Below, in pieces: positions 7,735-61,726 of a DNA stretch of 64,000 nt. The position numbers were made by a program, and so were the translations under genes. Under the pieces are notes generated by a model that was not told the origin of the DNA, did no database searches, and was given only the letters and a program-made list of their open reading frames with translations. How positions within the stretch are numbered: the stretch's first letter is position 1; every line of letters begins with the position of its first letter. The stretch comes from Halococcus agarilyticus (GTDB taxonomy: Archaea; Halobacteriota; Halobacteria; Halobacteriales; Halococcaceae), in contig NZ_BAFM01000013.1 of the NCBI RefSeq assembly GCF_000334895.1, positions 62,001 through 126,000 of the forward strand, read 5' to 3'.

Positions 7735-8140
7735 GGTCCGGCGTGCCGTGCGGTGGCGGCGCGGCTGCGGAGGCGGGTTGGTTGCGGTGGCGGTGCGGGC
7801 CTGGCGTCTCGGCGAACGAAGTGAGCCGAGGCTCAGGAGAGCTTGCTCTCCTGGCGGATGAAGGGCGAAGCGCGCGAACGGGGAGCGAAGCGACCCGTGA
7901 GTAGCGAACGAAGTGAGCGCGCGCCGAGGGCTTCGGCGGTTGCGGCTGCGGGGGCGGTCCTCGGTGGATCGAGGGCGAGCGAACGGAGTGAGCGAGGGCT
8001 CGGGCAGTGCTGTGTGGTTGCGGAGCGGTGCGGAGAGGGGTAGTTGTTGTACCGCGAGCGACCGGAGGGAGCGAGCGGGTGTTTTTCATGAACGTTTTTG
8101 CGAGGAGTGGTGCGCGAGCGAAGCGAGCGCACCCGACGAA
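7735..8140. repeat. Hairpin-rich intergenic repeat island A
   Basis: No gene is visible between nadK and the stress protein gene (7698-8150). The stretch is built from hairpins with different arms. Examples: CAGGAGAGC (7834-7842) pairs with 7845-7853 around a TT loop; CTCGGC (7808-7813) pairs with GCCGAG (7825-7830) around gaacgaagtga; ACGGG (7878-7882) pairs with 7894-7898 around gagcgaagcga; GGTGCGC (8109-8115) pairs with 8127-8133 around the same loop. The block GAGCGACCGGAGGGAGCGA near 8055 recurs in island F. The open frames that cross it are Ser-Glu-Arg repeats and are not real genes. Confidence 0.75.
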
Positions 8141-23740: not shown

Positions 23741-23753
23741 GGTGAGAACGTCT

Positions 23754-23879
23754 GCCCTCCCCGATTTGAACTCCGGAAGACGGTCGCGCTCGCTTCGCTC
23801 GCGCGCTGCGACTTCCGTGCTCAAATCGTGTCGGTTGGACGTGCTTCCCGCTCGCCGTTGGCTCGCGGAGAAGCAGTCC
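23754..23879 (-). mobile_element. 126-bp tRNA-Tyr-derived hairpin unit
   Basis: Bases 23754-23771 repeat exactly the 18 bases at 23880-23897, the T-loop-to-acceptor part of tRNA-Tyr, at an offset of 126 bp. Between the two copies the DNA folds back: CGATTTGA (23762-23769) pairs with TCAAATCG (23821-23828), CGGAAG (23774-23779) with CTTCCG (23812-23817), and CGCGC (23785-23789) with 23801-23805 around tcgcttcgctc. The interior shares AGACGGTC, GCTCGCT and GCTGCGACT with the unit next to tRNA-Ala. Insertion of a small element at the tRNA end is inferred; no integrase is present. Confidence 0.55.
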
Positions 23880-23950
23880 GCCCTCCCCGATTTGAACGGG
23901 GGACAAGTCGATCTACAGTCGACTGCTCTACCAGTCTGAGCTAAGGGCGG
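23878..23950 (-). tRNA. tRNA-Tyr (anticodon GUA)
   Basis: 73 nt, no intron. The acceptor stem is CCGCCCU with AGGGCGG and begins with C1-G72, the archaeal tRNA-Tyr identity pair. The anticodon stem is GUCGA/UCGAC with loop CUGUAGA, giving anticodon GUA. The T arm is CCCCG UUCAAAU CGGGG. A CTTAAG box lies about 27 bp upstream. Its T-loop-to-3' segment is copied downstream at an offset of 126 bp. Confidence 0.95.
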
Positions 23951-34916: not shown

Positions 34917-35067
34917 AGCCCTTAACAGCGCCACTGGCGGAGTTCCGGTGACTCGCCGGGCGGGCACCGGCGGGCACCTGCGTGCGATGTTCGCATTGCA
35001 GGTCGGAATGTGGCCAGCGTGGTCCATCGGGCCACGCGGCTGAACCACCAACGCCCGCAGACAACAC
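34917..35067 (+). promoter_or_regulatory. Promoter and structured leader of rpl15e
   Basis: The 330-bp gap 34738-35067 holds no gene. CCCTTAAC near 34919-34926 is a TATA-like box on the plus strand; TATAAAAG at 34871-34878 could serve either direction. If transcription starts about 25 nt after the first box, the leader is about 120 nt. It contains CGGGCACC twice in tandem, GCGTGG (35017-35022) pairing with CCACGC (35032-35037), and CCTGC pairing with GCAGG around 34977-35002. A structured leader before a ribosomal-protein gene suggests autogenous control, which is inference. Confidence 0.45.
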
Positions 35068-61527: not shown

Positions 61528-61653
61528 ATGGACTCGCTGGGATTCGAACCACGCCGAGACGGTCCTGCTCGCTCCCTACGGTCGCTGTGCGGGCTGCGAC
61601 TCGTCTACTTCGGAATCCCAGCTTGATCATTCTCGCTCGTAAAACTCGCTCCG
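61528..61653 (-). mobile_element. 126-bp tRNA-Ala-derived hairpin unit
   Basis: Bases 61528-61550 repeat exactly 61654-61676, the T-loop-to-3' end of tRNA-Ala, at an offset of 126 bp. Inside, GCTGGGATTC (61536-61545) pairs perfectly with GAATCCCAGC (61613-61622), and GAGACG near 61555 pairs with CGTCT near 61602. The interior shares AGACGGTC, GCTCGCT and GCTGCGACT with the unit at tRNA-Tyr. On the reverse strand a T5 run follows the copied end, a possible terminator. A small element inserted at the tRNA 3' end is inferred; no integrase is present. Confidence 0.55.
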
Positions 61654-61654
61654 A

Positions 61655-61726
61655 TGGACTCGCTGGGATTCGAACCCAGGGCCTCTTCCTTGCGAAGGAA
61701 GCGATCTACCGCTGATCTACGAGCCC
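61655..61726 (-). tRNA. tRNA-Ala (anticodon CGC)
   Basis: 72 nt, no intron. The acceptor GGGCUCG pairs with CGAGUCC and includes G3-U70, the tRNA-Ala identity pair, with discriminator A. The anticodon loop UUCGCAA gives CGC (codon GCG). The T arm is CUGGG UUCGAAU CCCAG. It begins 10 bp after the end of the rhomboid gene on the same strand, so read-through into it is possible. Confidence 0.95.

Follow-up and report, generated by a model that had tools for sequence, protein, structure and literature searches.

Small hairpin-bearing units behind haloarchaeal tRNA genes, probably miniature integrative elements with an attachment site in the T-loop

Directly behind the tRNA-Ala(CGC) gene of Halococcus agarilyticus lies a 126-bp unit that is gained or lost as a single precise piece. 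Two copies of tRNA nt 53-73 bound it, of which the proximal one completes the tRNA and the distal one marks the far end, and the outer arm of its conserved hairpin complements the T-arm of the adjoining tRNA. In our judgement, the unit is probably a miniature non-autonomous integrative element that has its attachment site in the T-loop and is moved, probably in trans, by a tyrosine recombinase.

The tRNA-Ala(CGC) unit and its empty site

In the window, by which we mean the whole 64,000-nt stretch of DNA analysed, the tRNA-Ala(CGC) gene is found at 61655-61726 on the minus strand (ARAGORN and Rfam RF00005, 69.7 bits). The initial annotation had reported a 23-base repeat with an offset of 126 bp, a complement of part of it at 61613-61622, and interior words shared with a unit at tRNA-Tyr, all of which were confirmed in the sequence. 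The 23-mer ATGGACTCGCTGGGATTCGAACC occurs twice in the window, at 61654-61676 and at 61528-61550, the second copy being downstream of the gene, since the latter is on the minus strand; GCTGGGATTC (61536-61545) is exactly complementary to GAATCCCAGC (61613-61622); and the words AGTCGCAGC ... AGCGAGC ... GACCGTCT (sense) are common to the Ala and Tyr units, in the same order.

The whole unit spans 61529-61654 and, like all its parts, lies on the minus strand; it was delimited by empty-site alignment with the relative G008, where it is missing at the orthologous site. Read in the sense of the tRNA, the end of the gene, whose nt 53-73 form the proximal block (61655-61675), is followed by a 5' spacer of 32 nt (61623-61654), for which a first hairpin is predicted in most units, although in this copy it is weak or absent, then by the left arm GCTGGGATTCCGAA (61609-61622), which complements the T-loop and the 3' strand of the T-stem with one inserted base, by the core hairpin, and finally by a perfect copy of nt 53-73. 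The core stem is formed by the 5' strand CGAGTCGCAGCC (61592-61603), one base longer than its partner, and by the conserved 3' strand GGACCGTCTCG (61555-61565), and these strands flank a variable terminal hairpin (61566-61591). The 5' strand was assigned from an 88.8-bit match to the covariance model R1 described below, from covariation and from arm lengths, and the 3' strand from the covariance model and the same two properties. The distal copy GTTCGAATCCCAGCGAGTCCA (61529-61549), with block edges taken from 86 units, is 100% identical to the tRNA. No Rfam covariance model scored above its gathering threshold at this unit. A decayed unit behind tRNA-Ala(GGC) of the same genome (L350, contig C18) has nearly the 5' spacer of the tRNA-Ala(CGC) unit, its core having seemingly been deleted between two GAGTC repeats.

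Among ten genomes of the genus, a recognisable unit at tRNA-Ala(CGC) is present in H. agarilyticus only. The closest relative, G008, has an identical 72-nt tRNA-Ala(CGC) gene, directly followed by TTCCACTTTTGCTTCGCTCAGTCGCTCCC..., as is found after the distal copy in H. agarilyticus, and beyond this junction the flanks of the two genomes are near-identical over about 80-95 bp. Given this clean empty site in the closest relative, the 126-bp unit was gained or lost precisely.

The second unit-bearing tRNA of the window is tRNA-Tyr(GTA) (23877-23950, minus strand; ARAGORN and Rfam). Its 126-bp unit (23751-23876, minus strand), recognised by a 62-bit match to the covariance model and by its presence or absence among relatives, has the layout of the tRNA-Ala(CGC) unit, with one substitution in the distal copy (23751-23771, minus strand). 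A tRNA-Tyr unit is present in H. agarilyticus (G000) and in G001, G004, G005 and G006, in forms of 126, 139, 82 and 104+100 bp, and no unit was found at this site in G002, G003, G007, G008 and G009. The units at tRNA-Phe vary among relatives in both length and core. Elsewhere in the window, Rfam matched an eL15-Euryarchaeota ribosomal protein leader at 34977-35051 (37.3 bits).

A family of units at haloarchaeal tRNA genes

In the source genome (H. agarilyticus, 3.48 Mb), tRNA loci were located by Rfam, and the last 20 nt of each tRNA were sought downstream of it, with a control that covered 300 bp on each side of the 41 tRNAs at a threshold of at least 16 of 20 nt. A near copy lies within 300 bp downstream of 16 of the 41 tRNAs and within 300 bp upstream of none (0/41), so the downstream copies are not due to chance. 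The initial annotation had expected such end copies at further tRNAs and had proposed a family of units with both ends matching the adjoining tRNA; the 16 positive tRNAs bear out the expectation, and the units seen across tRNAs and genomes support the family. It had also looked to the 126-bp offset as a shared property, and here we found no excess: the offsets of 86 units span 93-468 bp, with 126 and 159 occurring five times each, and some of those at the upper end belong to the second or third unit of a tandem. As 126 is not a mode of the distribution, the equal offsets of the Ala and Tyr units are a coincidence, and the 126-bp offset was rejected as a family trait.

A covariance model (R1), built on nine units including that of tRNA-Ala(CGC), gave matches in all 18 genomes of the taxonomic family (18/18) and in 43 of 59 genomes sampled across the order, and on a 148-genome sample of the phylum no units were found beyond this order. 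Among the named carriers are Natronorubrum, Natronosalvus, Halosimplex, Halovivax, Haloferax gibbonsii, Halorhabdus and Natrinema. From a total of 117 distinct units, 104 begin within 400 nt downstream of a tRNA called by ARAGORN, on the same strand, and these tRNAs represent 30 anticodons; several of the remaining 13 stand behind a tRNA missed by ARAGORN or behind an earlier tRNA-end copy. The units are mostly about 100-180 bp long, with no room for a recombinase gene. The loose DNA pattern AGTCGCAGCN{12,40}GRHCGTCT was also run on viral and genome collections, where its matches are mostly chance ones, those in haloarchaea being nearly all real units. A tighter pattern revealed no unit in viral contigs, nor did a distant search of phage records.

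Units can be stacked in tandem, as seen for two units with different cores on tRNA-Ser(CGA) and for two identical 125-bp units at tRNA-Leu(GAG). In Halorhabdus salina (L239), a single tRNA-Arg(CCG) gene has three tandem units behind it. In G022 and G059 (L490, L491), two tRNA-Gly(GCC) genes lie about 1.7-1.8 kb apart with a unit behind each, which looks like a segmental duplication that included the unit. In G011 (L053, 1501-1643), a tRNA-Gly(UCC) gene is apparently split in the T-loop by a unit that has no proximal copy, which may reflect a deletion or an assembly error. On a megaplasmid of Natrinema thermotolerans (L471, about 7850-8110), a unit stands behind a tRNA-like 3' end with no ARAGORN tRNA gene, possibly a degenerate tRNA.

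Copied block, left arm and core hairpin

The edges of the copied block were analysed in the 86 units picked for a distal copy of at least 18/20, and are sharp: identity is 92-100% at tRNA nt 53-73 and 9-47% outside, save for nt 52 at 70%. Over 20 nt, the distal copy equals the adjoining tRNA in 73 of 104 units. The copies are 95.0% identical to their own tRNA in the T-stem, versus 52.5% to other tRNAs, and in the acceptor strand 93.6% versus 47.7%; the acceptor part is conserved, yet it lies outside the predicted stem.

The left arm is internal, usually 27-70 nt from the tRNA end, and has a local score of 9.41 with its own T-arm versus 7.06 with other T-arms, the match being usually imperfect. 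At the 28 T-arm sites with a difference between distal copy and tRNA, the left arm pairs with the tRNA letter in 20 cases and with that of the copy in 4. The simplest reading is that the left arm was matched at insertion and that the distal copy drifted afterwards; a hairpin held in place by selection would have tracked the copy.

For the core hairpin, an alignment of 119 matches shows two-sided changes in 16 of 22 pairs, pairing in 93.7% of cells versus 79.7% in shuffles, and a covariation score of 0.389 versus 0.149, figures that lean towards the structure, to which the alignment had been fitted. In 93 of 104 units, the arms of the inner stem measure 12 nt (5') and 11 nt (3'), or 8 and 7 nt, and at least 93 of the 104 have the single additional base on the 5' core arm. 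The outer arm is separated from the inner stem by an unpaired spacer, about 5 nt long on either side, and the tip is variable. In the 5' spacers, a paired base is predicted at most 6 nt from the tRNA end in 68 of 75 cases, and a hairpin with z < -2 in 36 of 75. The frequency of G-U pairs (1.4% in unit cores, 2.3% in tRNA acceptor stems) does not discriminate between RNA and DNA, and this test was dropped. Units with a different core, e.g. GGAACGAGCGAGC...GTTCAGGTGG or GAACGACCGTGG, were observed at tRNA-Lys(UUU), Thr(UGU), His, Met and Arg(CCG) (L001, L002, L003, L013, L026 and L034), and a 5' spacer motif like CTGCGACGAACGGACGTGAGGAGCG is common to units of tRNA-Arg(UCU), Arg(CCG), Lys(UUU) and Ser(GGA).

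The nearest relative of a core stands behind the same tRNA of a different genome for 22 cores (3.8 expected) and behind a different tRNA of the same genome for 13 (3.8 expected), while for 69 both tRNA and genome differ; this last class may partly be convergence, the cores being short and constrained. The cores are clearly not bound to a single tRNA.

Integrase elements at the same tRNA genes

In Natrinema zhouii, tRNA-Pro and a 161-bp unit are separated by a 21.3-kb element which, beside its far tRNA copy, encodes a 354-aa integrase with 67% identity to that of the pleolipovirus Humcor2 and 39% to that of SNJ2. G041 has a similarly placed element of 8.5 kb, between tRNA-Phe and a 157-bp unit, with a Phage_integrase gene and a 52-73 block. 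H. agarilyticus itself has six Phage_integrase matches, none tied to units. Inspection by eye of four large-element ends did not show the core hairpin, and on this basis large integrase elements were dropped as its carriers. In SNJ2 and three proviruses related to it, the attP identity covers about 13-15 bp of the tRNA 3' end, versus 21 bp (nt 53-73) for the block of the units; we therefore abandoned the idea that SNJ2-type viruses use exactly the site of the unit, and an enzyme of the SNJ2 type may not be the one that moves the units. Nevertheless, circular forms of pleolipoviral proviruses residing at the 3' ends of haloarchaeal tRNA genes have been recovered (PMC7911831), so an enzyme of the kind needed is at hand. 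The integron integrase profile TIGR02249 gave no match above cut-off in 40 genomes of the order (0/40).

Proposed mechanism and alternatives

We propose that the unit would enter the T-loop at about G53/T54 through site-specific recombination, bringing its own nt 54-73 and so restoring the tRNA, as tRNA-targeting proviruses and islands do. The enzyme would probably be a tyrosine recombinase, acting in trans or provided in cis by a larger element at a shared tRNA site. Its recognition site is probably the hairpin, whose arm box, unpaired spacer, inner box with an extra base and variable tip are reminiscent of a folded integron attC. The left arm would be inherited with the element and would steer it to tRNAs of matching T-arm, and the substrate could be a very small circle, a single strand in folded form, or DNA carried along beside a larger element. 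Against an integrative element, neither a circular nor a single-stranded form of a unit was seen, and a double-stranded circle of 126 bp would be very small; moreover, a simple crossover fails to explain one core at different tRNA types, because the 3' end brought in has to fit the tRNA. A bolder proposal, which we consider rather unlikely, is that the units are a haloarchaeal counterpart of integrons without the integron: hairpin cassettes that would recombine, perhaps as folded single strands, into the T-loops of tRNA genes generally, with the arm as an address that can be retuned for each tRNA.

Related cores at different tRNA types are more easily explained by a transposition-like insertion, through a DDE, Cas1-like or other enzyme, that duplicates a 21-bp target, tRNA nt 53-73: any 3' end would be copied automatically, and the element would need no matching end. 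In agreement with this, every tandem unit has its own copy, and the copies are usually perfect over the acceptor strand too (93.6% identity to the own tRNA versus 47.7% to other tRNAs). Still, a block fixed at 21 bp, whose two edges coincide with tRNA landmarks in 86 units, is more typical of the identity block of an attachment site, target duplication by itself leaves the tRNA-matched left arm unexplained, and no transposase candidate was identified, so we hold such a transposition to be unlikely. We are more doubtful still about a functional RNA module cotranscribed with the tRNA, be it a mimic of a tRNA 3' end, as the initial annotation had suggested, a decoy for RNase Z, or an arm and copy that regulate tRNA folding, with gene conversion keeping the ends matched. 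RNase Z is expected to cut at tRNA nt 73, exactly where the block ends; the core helices covary and a second hairpin is often predicted. The units are also always on the tRNA strand, but an attachment site would equally require strand and position. Whole circular tRNAs, which have been reported only in haloarchaea (PMC12558985), would likewise suit an RNA role. However, close relatives differ in the presence of the unit, with a clean empty site, the left arm does not track the mutations of the distal copy (20 tRNA versus 4 copy), and conservation of the copy extends to its acceptor part, which is outside the predicted stem. An inserted DNA element therefore fits better than an RNA hairpin maintained in place, given the exact gain or loss and an arm that does not co-vary with the mutated copy.

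That integrase elements and units stand in tandem at the same site could also suggest that the units are scars of tRNA-integrated proviruses or islands with the middle deleted. We find this very improbable: one core structure across many tRNAs and families is not expected of random deletions, the core is missing from the four large-element ends read by eye, and viral contigs and phage records yielded no unit-like sequence. Slippage during replication or a tandem duplication around tRNA genes, for which the identical 125-bp tandem copies at tRNA-Leu(GAG) could be cited, is barely credible, as it accounts for growth in copy number only, and neither for a core common to 30 anticodons nor for insertion into an empty site; the empty site and the shared core refute it as the origin of the units.

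Comparison with known systems

The miniature integrative element that we favour can be compared with several described systems. In CIMEs and tandem accretion, att-flanked DNA without a recombination gene of its own is stacked beside full elements; the units are likewise att-flanked and stacked, but they are far smaller, share a structured core and occur at very many tRNA genes. The tyrT repeats (rtT RNA) of Escherichia coli are repeats of about 178 bp behind a tRNA gene, each with a tRNA 3' end. There, however, one locus is involved, with no core common to tRNA types, and we know of no clade-wide family of such repeats. The units also differ from MITEs and DDE transposons in that no terminal inverted repeats are present at their ends, the inverted arm being internal, and in that the duplicated block is 21 bp rather than short. 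As short, gene-less, mobile haloarchaeal repeats they resemble the MITEs, PATEs and SMRs of Haloquadratum (PMC3119063), but these lack the 21-bp tRNA block and were not described as tRNA-targeted or as having target-dependent ends.

Proviruses with tRNA-targeting tyrosine integrases include the pleolipoviruses SNJ2, Humcor2 and Halfgib1, and a Haloquadratum prophage with a 22-nt tRNA duplication (PMC3119063, PMC7911831, PMC8371274). Like these, the units are placed at the tRNA 3' end, leave the tRNA intact, have a duplicate of the 3' end at the far side and, at tRNA-Ala(CGC), show a precise empty site in a relative, and some tRNA-targeting integrase elements stand in tandem with units at one tRNA. 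In contrast to these proviruses, the units have no integrase, mostly measure about 100-180 bp and carry a T-arm-matched hairpin, the core of which is not in the four large-element ends read; the att identity also differs, with 13-15 bp in pleolipoviruses against the 21-bp block of the units. With integron attC sites (PMC2727003) the units share, in anatomy only, inverted boundary boxes that pair, a block starting with GTT, an unpaired spacer, an extra base on the first arm, a variable terminal hairpin and a tandem array in one orientation. Unlike integron cassettes, they have no cassette ORF, their target is the tRNA T-loop and their arms follow the tRNA sequence; they are also found at tRNA genes and not beside attI and intI, with no IntI above cut-off in the 40 genomes.

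The units are apparently unrecorded, in view of the absence of an Rfam match and of the open-access literature, in which we found proviruses, MITEs/PATEs/SMRs and tRNA-fragment papers but no description of such units; an earlier description is possible in subscription papers. Because they come and go precisely between related species, our results suggest that the units constitute a very small class of tRNA-targeting mobile element, undescribed so far. Since short tRNA 3' copies like theirs can pass for provirus remnants or tRNA fragments, the units also matter for annotation. About one in three tRNA genes of H. agarilyticus has such a unit, the family extends across an archaeal order, and, if our reading is true, few natural elements that integrate site-specifically would be smaller. 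How a recombination site comes to be re-addressed to a whole series of related targets is a question that arises for tRNA-targeting integrases in general, and the units would then make it directly testable.
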